The notes beneath the pieces are model-generated. The model searched no databases. It was not told the DNA's origin and saw only the letters and a program-made list of their open reading frames with translations. DNA of 64,000 bases, from assembly GCF_000299415.1 (NCBI RefSeq), contig NZ_AMPG01000001.1:558001-622000 (forward strand). Reading direction: 5' to 3'. The position numbers and the translations under genes were made by a program. The DNA is from Candidatus Microthrix parvicella Bio17-1 (GTDB lineage: Bacteria > Actinomycetota > Acidimicrobiia > Acidimicrobiales > Microtrichaceae). Positions 41,672-48,984 of this stretch are shown here, one piece after another. Numbering within the stretch: position 1 is the first letter of the stretch; every line of letters starts with the position of its first letter.

Positions 41672-44600
41672 TCAGCTTGAGGTCGGGCCCCAGGCCGCAC
41701 CACCGGGAGTAAGCATGCGCAAAACGTCGCCCGCCTGAAGCGCGATGGTGCACTTGTCGGGCAGGCGCTCGGCACGTGAGGTGTCACCTCCAGGCAGCAG
41801 CCAGTTTTCACCCACGGCGCCGTCACCCCCACCCGCACGACCTCGGGGCGCCACCACGCGTCGGTCGCAGATCAACGACACGGTGACCGGCTCGAGCACT
41901 TCGAGTTCGCGCTCGATGCCCTCCCCACCCGGCGACCTGCCCGCACCGCCGCTGCCCCGACGCAGGGTGTAGCGCCGCACCCGCACCGGTAACACCCGCT
42001 CGGCGGCCTCGATCGGCGTGTTGAGGGTATTGGTCATCGCCGTGTGCACTCCCGACATGCCCGGCAAGGGCTCATCAGCAACCCCGACCGGCCGACCTCC
42101 CTGGCCACCACCCACCGTCTCGTAGCTGACCCAGCCGTCCCCACCCAGAAGAATGCTGTTCATAGTGCCCTGCGAATCGGCCGGCACCCGCCCGGGGAAC
42201 GGCCCCGCCAACGCGCCCAGCGCCACATCGGCCACCCGCTGGCTCACTTCGACGTTGCCGGCACCAACCGCGCTGGGCGCCACGGCATGGGTCACCGTGC
42301 CGGGACGGGTGACAACCTCCAGTCGGCGGAAGGTGCCCGCATTGGCCGGAAGCGACGGATCCAGCACGGAACGTAGCGCCCAGAAGGTCGCCGAGATGGT
42401 GACGGCCGGTGGCGCCCACACGTTGCCCGGCGCCGAGGCACCGCTGGCCGAGTAGTCGAACACGGCCCGGTGGCCGTCCAAGGTGAGCCGCACCCGAACG
42501 GGCACCGGCTCGCGCTGGTTCGGCGCGGGCCCGGACGAGTCCATCACGTCCGCAGCGTCCCACTGACCCACCGGGGCCCGAGCCAACGCCGCCGCCACGG
42601 CTCGTTCGCCATGATCGAGCACCTCGGCAAATGCGACGGCGGCGGCCTCGGGTCCGCCCAACTCCTCCACGATGGTCGCCAGCCGCTCGACCCCCACCCG
42701 GTTGGCACCCGCCTGGGCATCAAGGTCACCTCGCCGTTCGTCCGGGGTTCGGCTGTTGGCAACCACCAGCGCCGCCACCTCGGGGGTGAAGCGCATCGGC
42801 GGAAGCCGCAAACCCTCCTGGGCAATATGGGTGGCGTCGGCGGGAAGCGACCCGGGGGCCGAGCCGCCGACGTCGGCGTGATGCGCCCGAGTGGCAAGCC
42901 ACCCCACCAGGGTGGCGTCGCAGTGTACGGGCGCCACCAGGGTGAGATCATTCAGGTGGGTGCCGCCCGCGAAGGGATCGTTGACCACGGCCTGCTCGCC
43001 GGCGGGCAAGTCGCCCAGTCGTTCGACGACTGCCGCCACCGCCGCCGGCATCGACCCGAGGTGCACGGGGATGTGTTCGGCTTGAACCAGTAATCGCCCT
43101 TGTGCGTCGAACAGCGCAACCGAGCAGTCGGCCCGTTCCTTGATGTTGGCGCTGAACGCGGCGCGTCGCAATACGGCTCCCGCCTCATCGGCCACCCCGG
43201 TCAGTCGGGACAGGAGCACCGCCAACCCTGCGCCGCCACCCCCCACCTTGACGTCACCCTCGCCTGAGCCCGCGGTCGGGTTTGGATCGGTGGTGTGCAC
43301 CGCGTCGGCGACGGCATCGGCGGTGATCACCAGCGATCCCAGCGGCCCAGGTCTGCCCGTCCAGCCCCTGGGGATCCAGACCGTATGGTCTGCCGCCGGC
43401 AGGGAGATGGGGCCTCGCACCTCGGTGGTCGTCACCGGATCCGCCCCGGTCAGCAACTCCACAACACCCAGCAGTGAGTGACGCTCACCGGTGGCACGCA
43501 ATGACACGACCTCGATGACAGCATCGGGCAGCGAGTACCCGTTGCGCCGTTGATGGATCGCCCCAAAATCGTCCACGTCCTCGACCTCGATCTCATGAGA
43601 CTGCCCGACATAGCGACAGGACAGCCACGAGGACACCGTCACCTCGCCGTCCGCCCGTGCGACAGCACTCGTCCGAGAATCTCCGTGGTCACCAACGCCG
43701 AGCAACGCCTCCACCCGTGACTCAAGGGTTTGCCTGGCCTCGTTCAGTCCGTTCCTGCGCCGTGGGGTGGGCCATGTTTGAGTGAGGTCGTGACGTTCCG
43801 GTGCGCCCAGAATGCCGACCGCAGACAGCACCCCTGCGAGCGGCGGGACGATGACCGCCGCCATGCCCAACGACGCGGCCAACTCGCACGCGTGAAGCGG
43901 TCCTGCGCCGCCGAACGCCACCAGTGCCAACCCTGCCGGATCGATGCCACGTGACACGCTGACGCTGCGAAGCGCGCGCTCCATGTTCGCCGTCACCACA
44001 TCGAGCAGTCCTTGAGCGCTCAACCCTGCTTCGCTCAACGCTGCGGCGGCACCGGCGACGTCGAGGTCGCCGAGGGCCCCACTCCCCTCGGTCGGAATTC
44101 GACCCAGCGCCACATTGGCATCGGTAACCGTAGGTTCGGTGCCGCCCCGCCCGTAGGCCACCGGGCCGGGCACGGCGCCCGCCGAGCGTGGCCCCACGGC
44201 GACCGCTCCGCCCGAGTCGATCGAGCCGATGGAGCCGCCCCCGGCGCCGATTGTGACGACGTCCAGTGACGGCAACCGAACCGGATGGCCCACCAGGTCA
44301 CGTTCGGCCGCCGGCGCCGGTTCGCCGCCGGTGATGAGGCACACGTCGGTCGACGTCCCACCCATGTCGAGCGAGATCGCGCCGGGAAAGCCGCATGCCG
44401 CCGCCACCACCGCCGCCGCCCGCACCCCGCCGGCCGGTCCGGACAGGGCCAACCCAACGGGGGCCTCAAGCGCCTTGGCAAGCGGCCACATTCCACCCGC
44501 CGACGTCATGATCCACAGTTGCTCGGCCAAGCCGGACAGCCCCTCGAGGTAGCGGCGAACACGCGGACGCAGCGCCGCGTTCATCACCGTCGTTGAAGCC

Positions 44601-45211
44601 CGTTCGAACTCTCTGAACAGCGGCGAGAGCTCGTGGCTTGCCGTCACGTCCCAACCGCGTGCTCGATACGCCTCGGCCACCATTGACTCCCCCTCGGCGT
44701 TGAGATCGGCATGAAGGAAGCACACCGCAATCGCTTCGACACCCTCCGGGATCTCTGGAAGCAGGTCGAGGCTGGGAGCGGTCTCCACCACCCCATCCGG
44801 GAAGGTCCGCTCGCGCACCTCCAAGCGATCGACGCGGTTGACCAACGGACGAGGCCGATCAACGAAATGGTCCGCAAGCGAGGGCCGATGCTGACGACCG
44901 ATCTCGATCAGATCCCCAAACCCCTCCGTCACCAACAGGGCCACGCGAGCCAGCGTCCCTTCCAACACCGCGTTGGTGGCCACGGTGGTGCCGTGAGCGA
45001 GATAGGCCACCTGGCCCGTCCCCAGGCGAGCGAGGCCCTGCCGGATGGCGTCACCCGGGTTTTCCGGTGTCGACGGCACCTTCATCACCGTGCCGTCCAT
45101 CGTCACCACATCGGTGAACGTGCCGCCGGTGTCCACACCGATTTTGATCGACCGAAAGGCCGGTGGCCGGGCGCCAGGCGGTCGGTGCGGTTGTGACCGT
45201 TCAGCCGGCAC
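41672..45211 (-). CDS. Fused hydantoinase/oxoprolinase (HyuA-HyuB)
   Basis: A 1179-residue protein joining the two subunits of ATP-dependent hydantoinase/5-oxoprolinase enzymes, which open cyclic amides such as 5-oxoproline. The HyuA half (about 1-640) begins KIGVDTGGTFTDVV, with the ATP-binding-type GGTSTDVCLI, LSGPAGGVRAAA and FGGAGPLHACELA. The HyuB half (about 670-1179) has FSANIKERADCSVALFD, VNDPFAGGTHLNDLTLV and the late GGGQGGRPVG. The order and fusion are as in eukaryotic 5-oxoprolinase. The start is the GTG at 45211, ten bases after the RNase H gene's stop. A short Pro/Arg leader (RSQPHRPPGARPP) precedes the domain. Confidence 0.9.
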   Translation of the reverse strand: MPAERSQPHRPPGARPPAFRSIKIGVDTGGTFTDVVTMDGTVMKVPSTPENPGDAIRQGLARLGTGQVAYLAHGTTVATNAVLEGTLARVALLVTEGFGDLIEIGRQHRPSLADHFVDRPRPLVNRVDRLEVRERTFPDGVVETAPSLDLLPEIPEGVEAIAVCFLHADLNAEGESMVAEAYRARGWDVTASHELSPLFREFERASTTVMNAALRPRVRRYLEGLSGLAEQLWIMTSAGGMWPLAKALEAPVGLALSGPAGGVRAAAVVAAACGFPGAISLDMGGTSTDVCLITGGEPAPAAERDLVGHPVRLPSLDVVTIGAGGGSIGSIDSGGAVAVGPRSAGAVPGPVAYGRGGTEPTVTDANVALGRIPTEGSGALGDLDVAGAAAALSEAGLSAQGLLDVVTANMERALRSVSVSRGIDPAGLALVAFGGAGPLHACELAASLGMAAVIVPPLAGVLSAVGILGAPERHDLTQTWPTPRRRNGLNEARQTLESRVEALLGVGDHGDSRTSAVARADGEVTVSSWLSCRYVGQSHEIEVEDVDDFGAIHQRRNGYSLPDAVIEVVSLRATGERHSLLGVVELLTGADPVTTTEVRGPISLPAADHTVWIPRGWTGRPGPLGSLVITADAVADAVHTTDPNPTAGSGEGDVKVGGGGAGLAVLLSRLTGVADEAGAVLRRAAFSANIKERADCSVALFDAQGRLLVQAEHIPVHLGSMPAAVAAVVERLGDLPAGEQAVVNDPFAGGTHLNDLTLVAPVHCDATLVGWLATRAHHADVGGSAPGSLPADATHIAQEGLRLPPMRFTPEVAALVVANSRTPDERRGDLDAQAGANRVGVERLATIVEELGGPEAAAVAFAEVLDHGERAVAAALARAPVGQWDAADVMDSSGPAPNQREPVPVRVRLTLDGHRAVFDYSASGASAPGNVWAPPAVTISATFWALRSVLDPSLPANAGTFRRLEVVTRPGTVTHAVAPSAVGAGNVEVSQRVADVALGALAGPFPGRVPADSQGTMNSILLGGDGWVSYETVGGGQGGRPVGVADEPLPGMSGVHTAMTNTLNTPIEAAERVLPVRVRRYTLRRGSGGAGRSPGGEGIERELEVLEPVTVSLICDRRVVAPRGRAGGGDGAVGENWLLPGGDTSRAERLPDKCTIALQAGDVLRMLTPGGAAWGPTSS

Positions 45212-45221
45212 GGGGTCGAAC

Positions 45222-46238
45222 CTACTGTTCGGCTGCGAGGTCCAGGTCCCAGACCTCTGCGCCAAGGCCGGCGAACCGTCGTAGCAGCGCTCGGCTCTCG
45301 GAGGAGTCGCCCTGTCGAACCAACAGTGCCCCATCGGCAACACCCGCCAACCAGGAGTCTCGGCGCGCCAGCGCCTGAGCGCGTCCATCAGCGTCGGTCG
45401 GTTGGGACCGCTCCAACACGATGGTTTCGTCCACCCGGGCCAGCAAGCGACCAAAGGCCTCCCGGTCTGCTGAGCGCAGCGTTGTCTGCGGGTCGGGCCA
45501 CGGCAGCACGGCAACCACGGTCAGGCCGGCCTCAAGGGCCACCTCAGCGGCCATGGCCTCAGGCCCCGGGCGCAGGCCCAGCAACACCACAAGGTCTGGA
45601 TGAAACTCCTGTTGCGCCGGCAGGATTTTGGCCAGCTGAGCCCGAGCGGCACCAAGCGCTCGGGCATCGAGGCGGCGGGTGCCGGTCACGGCGTAGCGGA
45701 AACCCGCCGGTGCCCGAGGGTCATCACGACGTGCCGGTGTTGACGCAGCAGTTGCCGGAGCAGTTGCCGCAGCAGTTGACGCGTTGGCCCCGACGGTGGC
45801 CGCCGCCTCGGTCGCCAGCCGGTCGGCCTCCTCGTTCATCGGGTCGCCGGCGTGGCCCTTCACCCAAGCGAACCGCACAGCGCCGTGCTCCGCCACCTCC
45901 TCGACGAAGGGCTGCCACAAATCCTTGTTGGCCACCGGCTCCTTCTTGGAATTCTTCCAGCCCCGCCTCAGCCAGCCCTCGATCCAGCCTTCGTTGAACG
46001 CAGAAACGACGTACTTGGAGTCGGACACCACCTCGACCGGACCTGGGTGCGTCGCCACCGCTTCACGCGCGGCCGTCAACTCCATGCGCTGGTTGGTGGT
46101 GTGGGCTTCGGCCCCGGAATCGGAGGATCCTCCATCGTCCACCCATCCCCAGCCGCCGGGGCCGGGATTGCCACGGCATGAACCATCGGTCCAGACCCGA
46201 GCGGGCCGATCGGCCGGCCCCGTTGACCTGGAGTCCAC
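45222..46238 (-). CDS. rnhA: Ribonuclease HI fused to a SLOG/YpsA-like domain
   Basis: A 338-residue protein. Residues 13-145 are RNase HI, which cuts RNA in RNA:DNA hybrids, with catalytic Asp18 (DGSCRGNPGPGGW), Glu53 (RMELTAAREA), Asp73 (SDSKYV) and Asp139 (NEEADRLA). After an Ala/Thr linker (about 145-178), residues 180-335 form a second Rossmann-type domain: YAVTGTRRLD, LVVLLGLRPGPEAMAAEVALEAG, VVAVLPWPD and a closing strand EVWDLDLA. This pattern looks like the SLOG/YpsA (DUF1273) nucleotide-sensing superfamily; I infer that from layout, not a search. It starts at GTG 46238, one base after the aceE stop, and hyuAB follows closely. Confidence 0.85.
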   Translation of the reverse strand: MDSRSTGPADRPARVWTDGSCRGNPGPGGWGWVDDGGSSDSGAEAHTTNQRMELTAAREAVATHPGPVEVVSDSKYVVSAFNEGWIEGWLRRGWKNSKKEPVANKDLWQPFVEEVAEHGAVRFAWVKGHAGDPMNEEADRLATEAAATVGANASTAAATAPATAASTPARRDDPRAPAGFRYAVTGTRRLDARALGAARAQLAKILPAQQEFHPDLVVLLGLRPGPEAMAAEVALEAGLTVVAVLPWPDPQTTLRSADREAFGRLLARVDETIVLERSQPTDADGRAQALARRDSWLAGVADGALLVRQGDSSESRALLRRFAGLGAEVWDLDLAAEQ

Positions 46239-46239
46239 T

Positions 46240-48984
46240 TCAGCGGGTCCAGGGTGGGTCGATGTCAGGGTCGATGCCGAAGCGGTCGATGGCCCCCGTG
46301 GCAACCGACGGGTCAAGCTCCCCGCTGCGGACCAGCGCCGACAGCACCGCCACCACCACGTGTGCTGCGTCGGTCTCGAAGAAGCGCCGAAGATGGGCCC
46401 GATCGTCGGACCGACCATAGCCGTCGGTGCCCAACACGCTGAACGGGCGCGGCACCCAGCGCACCACCTGGTCGGCCCAGGCGGAGAGGAAGTCCGAGAC
46501 CGCCACCACCGGCCCCGTGCCCGCTGACAGCAGACGGGTGATCAGCGGCAGCGCCTCGGGCGCGTCCGGGTGCAGCCGGTTCCAACGCTCGACCGCCAGG
46601 GCCTCTCGCCGGAGCTCGTTGTAGGAGGTTGCCGACCACAGGTCGACCCCCACGTCATAGTCCTCGTGCAGCAATCGCTGGGCCTCCTTGGCCGCAGTCC
46701 AGCCCGAGCCCGAGTACAGCACCGAGGCCTGATGAGCGGCCTGCGGCGCGCCGTGACTGTGGTACAACCCGCGGGTGACCCACCCGGTCAGCTCGTCGAT
46801 TCCCCCGTCTGTCTCTGGCATCGGGGGCATCTCGTAGTTCTCGTTGTAGAGGGTAAGGTAATAAAACACGTCCTCGCCACCCACCTTCTCGCCCGCTGCG
46901 GACGGCGGGTACATGCGAGCAAGGCCGTCACGAATGATCAGCGCCATCTCCCAAGCAAAAGCCGGGTCATAGGCACGGCACGCCGGCACCGTCGAAGCCA
47001 GCAGTTGGCTGTGACCATCCGTGTGTTGCAACCCCTCACCCTGCAGGGTGGTCCGACCGGCGGTCGCCCCCAGGAGGAAGCCGCGGGCCCGAGCGTCGCC
47101 GGCGGCCCAGATCAGGTCGCCCACCCGCTGGAATCCGAACATGGAATAGAACGTGAAGAACGGCAGCATCGGCACGCCGGTGGTGGCATAGGCCGTTGCA
47201 GCGGCGGTCCATGACGCCATCGATCCGGCCTCGGTGATGCCCTCCTCCAGGATCTGCCCATCGGACTTCTCGACGTAGGACAACAACAGGTGATGGTCCA
47301 CCGGCTCGTAGCGCTGTCCCTTGGCGGCGTAGATCCCCAGCTCGCGAAACAGCGCATCCATGCCAAAAGTGCGTGCCTCATCGGGGATGATCGGCACCAC
47401 CCGATCGCCGACCACGGGGTCGCGGGCAAGGCTGCGAAGCAGCCGGGTGAACGCCATCGTGGTCGACACCTCCTGCCCGTGGGAGCCCGCCAAAAGCTCG
47501 TTCCAGGTGCCCTCCTCGACCGAACCGAGACCCCGGCGAACCGGCAGGGTGCGAGCAGGCAGCGGGCCGTCCAAACCCCTCCGCCGCTCCATGAGATACC
47601 GATGCTCGGGCGAGTCATCGGCAAACCGCAGGTAGGGCGGATCACCGCCTGCCAGGTCGGCCTCGGACACGTCGTCCTCCAGGTGCAGGCGCTCTCGAAG
47701 CTCCAGCAACTGCTCGGTGTCCATCTTCTTGATCTGGTGGGTGGAGTTGCGCCCTTCCACCTTTGAACCCAGCGCCCAGCCCTTCACGGTCTGAGCCAGG
47801 ATGGCGGTCGGAGCGCCGGTCATCTCGGTGGCGGCCCGATAGGCGGCATACACCTTGGCGTAGTCGTGACCACCCCGTGGCAGGCTCTGCAACTGCTCAT
47901 CGGAAAGGTGTTCGACCAGCTTCCGCAGGCGCGGGTCGGGCCCAAAGAAATGCTCGCGGATGTAGGCGCCCGACTCGACGGCGTACCTCTGAAACTCACC
48001 ATCGACGGTGGTGTTCATCTTGTTGAGCAGCACGCCATCGACATCCTGTGCCAACAACTCGTCCCAAGCGGCGCCCCAGACCACCTTGATGACGTTCCAG
48101 CCATTGCCGCGGAAGATGCCCTCGAGCTCCTGGATGATCTTGCCGTTGCCCCGCACCGGCCCGTCCAGGCGCTGCAGGTTGCAGTTGACCACCCACGTGA
48201 GATTGTCCAGCCCCTCCCGCGCCGCCAGGTCGATCGAACCCAGTGTCTCGGGTTCATCGGTTTCTCCATCTCCGACAAAGGCCCACACCCGAGAGCGGGA
48301 GGTGTCATCGATGTGGCGGTTGTTCAGGTACCGGTCGAAACGTGCCTGGTAGATCGAGTTGATCGGTCCCAGACCCATCGACACGGTGGGAAACTGCCAA
48401 AAGTCACCCATGAGATGCGGATGGGGGTAACTGCTGAGGCCCCGGCCGGCCCGGGCGGGGGTATCGATGTCGAGACGAAAACGGTCGAGGTCGACCTCAT
48501 CGAAGCGGCCCTCCAGGTACGCCCGGGCGTAGATGCCAGGTGAAGCGTGACCCTGGATGTAGACGTGGTCGCCCGGGGTACCGTCGGCCTGGCCACGGAA
48601 GAAGTGGTTGAACCCCACCTCGTACAGCGCCGCCGAGGACGCGTAGGTGGACAGGTGCCCGCCGATGCCCGGCGCCGCCTTGTTGGCACGAACCACCATG
48701 GCCACCGCGTTCCAGCGAATGAACGCCCTGATGCGGCGCTCCATTTCGAAGTCACCGGGAAACCACGGCTGCCCATCGGTTGGAATCGTGTTCACATACG
48801 GGGTCCACACCGACGCCGCAACACCAAGTTGCCGATCGTGGGCGGCCTCGCCCAGCCGGGCCAACAGGTACCGCGCTCGGGCCTTACCCCGGTGCTCCAC
48901 GACGGCATCCAGCGAGTCGAGCCACTCCTGGGTCTCGCCCGGGTCGACATCGGGCAACTGGTGCGAGAACGCATCGTTGAGCAT
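46240..48984 (-). CDS. aceE: Pyruvate dehydrogenase E1, homodimeric type
   Basis: A 914-residue thiamine-diphosphate enzyme that decarboxylates pyruvate and acetylates the lipoyl group of E2. The ThDP-binding motif GDGETDEPETLGS...NCNLQRLDG is at about 230-265. Other AceE hallmarks are GHLSTYASSAALYEVGFNHFF, NKMNTTVDGEFQ, and TGVPMLPFFTFYSMFGFQR, and the length is that of the single-chain AceE family rather than the alpha2beta2 type. A GAGGGAG ribosome-binding site precedes the ATG, and a TAGTCT -10 lies about 36 bases upstream. E2 and E3 partners are encoded at 31.4-34.3 kb. The RNase H-SLOG gene follows immediately. Confidence 0.96.
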   Translation of the reverse strand: MLNDAFSHQLPDVDPGETQEWLDSLDAVVEHRGKARARYLLARLGEAAHDRQLGVAASVWTPYVNTIPTDGQPWFPGDFEMERRIRAFIRWNAVAMVVRANKAAPGIGGHLSTYASSAALYEVGFNHFFRGQADGTPGDHVYIQGHASPGIYARAYLEGRFDEVDLDRFRLDIDTPARAGRGLSSYPHPHLMGDFWQFPTVSMGLGPINSIYQARFDRYLNNRHIDDTSRSRVWAFVGDGETDEPETLGSIDLAAREGLDNLTWVVNCNLQRLDGPVRGNGKIIQELEGIFRGNGWNVIKVVWGAAWDELLAQDVDGVLLNKMNTTVDGEFQRYAVESGAYIREHFFGPDPRLRKLVEHLSDEQLQSLPRGGHDYAKVYAAYRAATEMTGAPTAILAQTVKGWALGSKVEGRNSTHQIKKMDTEQLLELRERLHLEDDVSEADLAGGDPPYLRFADDSPEHRYLMERRRGLDGPLPARTLPVRRGLGSVEEGTWNELLAGSHGQEVSTTMAFTRLLRSLARDPVVGDRVVPIIPDEARTFGMDALFRELGIYAAKGQRYEPVDHHLLLSYVEKSDGQILEEGITEAGSMASWTAAATAYATTGVPMLPFFTFYSMFGFQRVGDLIWAAGDARARGFLLGATAGRTTLQGEGLQHTDGHSQLLASTVPACRAYDPAFAWEMALIIRDGLARMYPPSAAGEKVGGEDVFYYLTLYNENYEMPPMPETDGGIDELTGWVTRGLYHSHGAPQAAHQASVLYSGSGWTAAKEAQRLLHEDYDVGVDLWSATSYNELRREALAVERWNRLHPDAPEALPLITRLLSAGTGPVVAVSDFLSAWADQVVRWVPRPFSVLGTDGYGRSDDRAHLRRFFETDAAHVVVAVLSALVRSGELDPSVATGAIDRFGIDPDIDPPWTR

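Follow-up and report, generated by a model that had tools for sequence, protein, structure and literature searches.

We found, in a window of 64,000 nucleotides from Candidatus Microthrix parvicella Bio17-1 (the whole stretch of DNA that was analysed), a gene that joins a ribonuclease HI to a C-terminal domain predicted to be a SLOG domain of the YpsA type. Judged from the genomes compared, this fusion is a conserved architecture that recurs across many genera. Both halves belong to known families, and what appears to be new is the use of a YpsA-type SLOG as a partner for RNase HI. We found no description of an RNase HI-SLOG fusion in the open-access literature, which was searched by titles and the starts of abstracts, so that an earlier mention is possible.

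The fusion gene and its two domains

The features of the locus are collected in Table 1. The earlier note gave the interval correctly and named no strand; the gene lies on the minus strand, and the plus strand over 45222-46238 is interrupted by stops and holds no open frame. Both motifs that it had picked out, VTGTRRLD and LGLRPGPEAMAAEVALEAG, are found in the translation. The C-terminal domain of the window protein starts at about residue 167-177 and extends to the protein end. Across 51 fused proteins the linker measures 29-82 aa, with boundaries set by script.

Table 1. Position of the fusion gene, its parts and the adjoining aceE gene in the window
Feature	Position	Strand	Details
rnhA-SLOG fusion gene	45222..46238	minus	338 aa; GTG start at 46238, stop at 45224..45222
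RNase HI domain	45801..46199, residues 14-146	minus	PF00075 2.5e-37; conserved catalytic-type positions intact
Ala/Pro/Thr-rich linker	45741..45800	minus	about 20-32 aa, depending on boundary choice
Predicted YpsA-type SLOG domain	45237..45740	minus	profile A1 match G000:C1:603237-603740; YpsA identity via relatives
aceE, pyruvate dehydrogenase E1	46240..48984	minus	914 aa; TIGR00759 1277.8 bits; neighbour gene

The N-terminal half fits its earlier description as an intact RNase HI. In addition to the Pfam match, PDB RNases H align to residues 10-148 with E-values down to 1.4e-35, and in this alignment the conserved Asp, Glu, Asp, His and Asp positions (in TDGS, RMEL, SDS, KGH and EADRLA), which we take to be the catalytic residues, are all retained. 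The NCBIfam model for ribonuclease HI matches at 7.9e-44 with 148.9 bits, 11 bits under its cut-off of 160 bits. The window RNase HI is predicted to cleave the RNA of RNA:DNA hybrids. As the sole PF00075 gene detected in the genome (assembly 95% complete), which also encodes one RNase HII, the fusion gene probably supplies the cell with its housekeeping RNase HI.

The C-terminal domain is predicted to be a YpsA-type SLOG domain because of the profile scores of its relatives, not those of the window domain alone, and the fold evidence is no more than suggestive. Searched as a 190-aa piece, the window domain gave weak SLOG matches (DprA, 0.0036; YAcAr, 0.052) that stay below every SLOG cut-off, with 17.5 vs 29.6 bits for DprA (PF02481) and 14.3 vs 28.2 bits for YAcAr, and the Pfam profile search listed no YpsA (PF06908) match for it. 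Aligned relatives with the same fusion are 37-45% identical to the window domain; at E<=0.1, YAcAr is matched by 22 of these 23 domains and YpsA by 8 of the 23. We also scored nine hand-picked relatives, three of which (L027, L031, L032) are among the 23 aligned, against PF06908. Six exceed its cut-off of 27.7 bits (L042 34.6, L045 33.6, L063 33.4, L031 32.1, L032 29.8, L110 29.5), one equals it (L053 27.7) and two lie below (L027 22.8, L109 18.9). When a profile of 27 domains was compared with the PDB, B. subtilis YpsA (2NX2) was the best match at 3.4e-5, followed by FtsZ at 0.087, with DprA at 0.25; the narrower 23-domain profile A1 again placed 2NX2 on top, with an E-value of only 0.013. 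The resemblance to SLOG/YpsA that the earlier note had noticed is borne out by the relatives above the cut-off and by this PDB match, both of which point to the YpsA branch.

Structure prediction from the single sequence gave a weak model of the window domain (pLDDT 58, pTM 0.54) in which helices and strands alternate. Foldseek with this pLDDT-58 model ranked ShosA first (0.011) and 2NX2 third (0.026), with folate reductases between and below them. VIA-align 2 on the same weak model gave a best Z of 5.6 to an unrelated fold, and the lack of YpsA among the 50 matches listed is uninformative either way. The model of the full-length protein is poor (pLDDT 40.7). PHROGs and PADLOC returned weak matches, with ShosA found in 7 of 23 members at best 2.2e-5.

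Several other identities were considered for this domain and rejected. The genome has a separate DprA (190.4 bits) and the profile prefers YpsA to DprA; an hhalign comparison of profile A2 with the genome's own DprA, a target consisting of a single sequence, gave a probability of 2%. GGxGT is the LOG-type motif, and it occurs in 0 of 54 domains, which speaks against a LOG phosphoribohydrolase. A CobC or acid phosphatase partner, the case named beforehand as one that would overturn the SLOG assignment, found no match: PRK07238 reaches 14.5 vs 326 bits and covers residues 15-170 only, leaving its C-terminal phosphatase domain uncovered.

Spread, conservation and loss of the fusion

We surveyed genomes for the fusion, as had been suggested, and it proved conserved. 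The domain was found in 40 of the 61 genomes searched as relatives (counting the window's own) and in 27 of the 33 from its own family. In the class sample it is present in 39 of 296 genomes, and RNase HI lies in the same reading frame in 39/39, 30 of these loci having been seen directly; for the other nine, the RNase HI match lies next to the domain on the same contig and has an equal frame length. Outside the class, the fusion also occurs in two genomes of the phylum (L109, L110). Among 54 distinct domains, 51 have an in-frame RNase HI and the remaining three (L005, L007, L016) have a contig end at their start. The 51 include L024, whose RNase HI is split over two frames but still partly in frame with the domain. 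No free-standing domain without RNase HI was seen among at most the best 11 candidates scored per genome in the class or the best 8 in the phylum search. Of 246 phylum genomes, PF06908 picks out a single one, which has the domain in a fusion; this model is insensitive here, as it missed the window's own domain.

Five weak matches in the phylum were rejected as fusions, since L112, L113, L114 and L116 have no RNase HI match and L115 has no match at all; two of these fragments are DprA and three match no Pfam family. Mobile or viral spread was likewise rejected: tblastn gave no match in plasmids or phages, and 0 of 14 pattern stretches in viral contigs were confirmed. A scan of genome contigs with the full protein confirmed one relative among 115 pattern stretches, through the RNase H part only. 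Locus L081 (G049), and likewise G307 and G315 (family f18), have a shorter and more divergent SLOG part (E 2.8e-15 to 1.7e-21, frames of 293-357 aa), which is possibly a reduced or decaying version of the domain.

Closely related pairs show purifying selection on both domains. For the SLOG domain, all 11 of the pairs compared have a dN/dS of 0.047-0.244, and for the RNase HI part the ten pairs that allowed a calculation have 0.017-0.132; the pairs share members, and the window gene belongs to none.

At the level of the class the SLOG domain is dispensable: 226 of the 265 genomes with an RNase HI (265/296) show no match to it and 39 are fused, with at most the best 11 candidates per genome scored. 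In a poorly resolved tree built from 50 fused and 24 unfused RNase HI domains (74 in all), the fused label changes 6 times, against a mean of 20.4 when labels are shuffled. The labels cluster, a pattern compatible with both a single and a repeated origin. The window RNase HI has the longest branch among the fused ones (0.8). One genome, G338 (L089), has an RNase HI that ends in a short linker-like tail without SLOG; it has probably lost the whole domain, as two other genomes of its genus g56 (G133, G292) are fused.

The gene sits, as the earlier note had said, directly behind a gene that TIGR00759 identifies as aceE, with the fusion GTG start one base past the aceE stop codon. This adjacency holds, but the same-strand layout differs from that of the relatives compared: all 15 neighbourhoods fetched from them have aceE adjoining rnhA on the opposite strand. 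An apparent in-place inversion of aceE in the window, or an assembly error, would account for it. Seven short imperfect inverted repeats (14-22 bases) lie around aceE, none of which could be placed as clear inversion ends. The neighbour is also weakened as a functional clue, since aceE flanks 11 of 24 unfused rnhA loci (11 of 20 in the same order), on the opposite strand in 11/11, the 24 being drawn from best-scoring RNase HI loci only. Because unfused rnhA genes share it, the aceE neighbourhood does not depend on the SLOG fusion and says nothing about a ligand. No defence or stress genes were noticed on incidental inspection of the neighbourhoods compared. The next frame in the window (41672-45514, minus strand) codes for a single chain with hydantoinase/oxoprolinase A and B domains (PF05378, PF01968, PF02538); a gene of this type also follows the fusion gene in many relatives, where it is often matched as two pieces.

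A candidate nucleotide pocket and the possible role of the fusion

The GxE motif (G225/E227; residues 225-227 in the window) is kept in 54 of 54 domains and aligns with G53/E55 of YpsA (profile vs 2NX2; the printed chain numbers are one higher, and the GxExW spacing fixes the mapping). A [RK]R[DN] motif follows 60-64 residues after GxE, again in 54/54, as RRD at 292-294 in the window. In B. subtilis YpsA, the substitutions G53A and E55Q, described as disrupting the predicted nucleotide site, are reported to abolish the filamentation effect and to impair foci, and W87A likewise inactivates the protein (PMC6459960). The Trp equivalent to W87 is kept in 49 domains and missing in 5, the window among them. 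Of the 54 domains, 25 have the first-loop PPxLGGY region and 29, again including the window, lack it; it is missing in 23 of the 24 distinct domains of family f1, the window's family, the window included. We take the Tyr/Phe of this loop to be the conserved pocket aromatic meant in PMC6459960. The evidence for a pocket, and with it for the nucleotide-gated nuclease suggested in the earlier note, is mixed: part of a predicted SLOG nucleotide pocket is recognizable, as GxE is kept throughout, but the first loop and the W87 equivalent are absent from the window protein. For this reason nucleotide sensing is not to be assumed for the window protein, and it seems plausible for the fusion family.

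Our preferred reading, which we hold tentatively and rate as somewhat short of probable, is that the YpsA-family SLOG on its linker serves a housekeeping RNase HI as an accessory regulatory module. RNase HI would remove RNA from RNA:DNA hybrids as a housekeeping enzyme; the SLOG domain, on its variable linker, would bind a ligand of the adenine-nucleotide type, with NAD+ or ADP-ribose derivatives as first candidates; and binding would alter the activity, oligomeric state or placement of RNase HI. In the window lineage the ligand may differ or sensitivity may be reduced, because the first loop and one Trp are missing. The more specific proposal, that a nucleotide such as ADP-ribose or an NAD+ derivative bound to the fused YpsA-type SLOG sets hybrid-removal activity, is possible and on the unlikely side. 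Related arrangements have been described elsewhere: the SIR2-SLOG effector ThsA is reported to be activated by 3'cADPR in its SLOG domain (PMC11204291), and regulation has been proposed for phage SLOG domains fused to HNH, exonuclease and helicase domains (PMC9503650). If true, the more specific proposal would tie R-loop removal directly to nucleotide or redox state and give a YpsA-family domain a defined molecular target. Were the gating real, a small molecule would control RNA:DNA hybrid removal in many related bacteria. For YpsA-type SLOG domains, whose molecular role is not settled, fusion to an easily assayed enzyme offers a direct readout of both binding and function.

The main rival, which we regard as rather unlikely, is a passive bifunctional fusion in which one polypeptide carries RNase HI and a YpsA-like domain that work independently of each other. 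The mycobacterial RNase HI-CobC protein (MSMEG_4305/Rv2228c) offers a precedent: the study of this protein reports that removal of the CobC domain in vivo hardly affected growth rate and did not raise the hybrid level, and it proposes fixation by drift (PMC7466739). A variable linker and domains evolving at different rates, described for RNase HI-CobC and seen here, fit a passive fusion as well. The same study reports an in vitro influence of the CobC domain of the homolog Rv2228c on RNase activity (PMC7466739). Independent function needs no fusion, however, and the SLOG domain is never found apart from RNase HI in the class sample (39/39). A decidedly unlikely reading, which overlaps with both the regulatory and the passive ones, takes the SLOG of the window lineage for a decaying remnant of a sensor that still works elsewhere. 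The gaps in the pocket (first loop missing in 23 of 24 family f1 domains, W87 equivalent absent in the window), the longest fused RNase HI branch (0.8) and the likely disappearance of the whole domain from G338 are what decay would leave, but the open frame, GxE and RRD have all been kept, and dN/dS is well under 1 in family f1 pairs, the window gene being in no pair.

Eukaryotic RNase H1 has a hybrid-binding domain, and on this model the SLOG could be a docking or oligomerisation module that binds nucleic acid or a partner and thereby raises affinity for the hybrid. We consider this unlikely. DprA, a SLOG member, is reported to bind single-stranded DNA (PMC7272460), YpsA to form foci (PMC6459960), and a variable linker would suit a tether. 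Yet the net charge of the domain has a median of -4 (range -11 to +2, n=51) and is -1 in the window, which makes docking to nucleic acid less likely; the profile is closer to YpsA than to DprA, and ThsA is described as showing no DNA binding in a shift assay (PMC7272460). A catalytic role, as a LOG-like phosphoribohydrolase or ADP-ribose N-glycosidase processing the nucleotides freed by RNase HI, is very improbable: SLOG enzymes of the LOG clade are reported to cut base-ribose bonds (PMC9503650) and every one of the 54 domains keeps the Glu of GxE and RR[D/N], but none of them has GGxGT and 29 lack the first-loop region.

Comparison with known systems

By profile, B. subtilis YpsA (PF06908, 2NX2) belongs to the same domain family as the fused domain and has GxE in common with it. 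YpsA 2NX2 is a single-domain chain of 181 residues, whereas the domain described here follows RNase HI in a fusion and carries the conserved RR[D/N]; the window protein also differs from YpsA in lacking the first-loop region and the W87 equivalent. In its layout the fusion is close to RNase HI-CobC of mycobacteria and actinomycetes (MSMEG_4305, Rv2228c), which is likewise described as an N-terminal RNase HI, a variable linker and a C-terminal second domain (PMC7466739). The partner differs: it is CobC in that protein and a predicted SLOG in the window, where PRK07238 scores only 14.5 bits.

ThsA of the Thoeris defence system likewise combines an enzyme with a C-terminal SLOG, which is reported to bind a cADPR isomer and thus provides a working model for gating. 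Its enzyme (SIR2) and its SLOG clade (STALD) are different, and ThsA is encoded with the TIR-domain protein ThsB, whereas the window gene stands beside aceE and a hydantoinase-type gene. The phage fusions of SLOG to HNH, 3'-5' exonuclease and helicase domains also join a SLOG to a nucleic-acid enzyme, and regulation through NAD+/ADPR sensing has been proposed for them (PMC9503650). Those fusions are described as sporadic and viral (PMC9503650), whereas the RNase HI fusion is cellular and present in many families.
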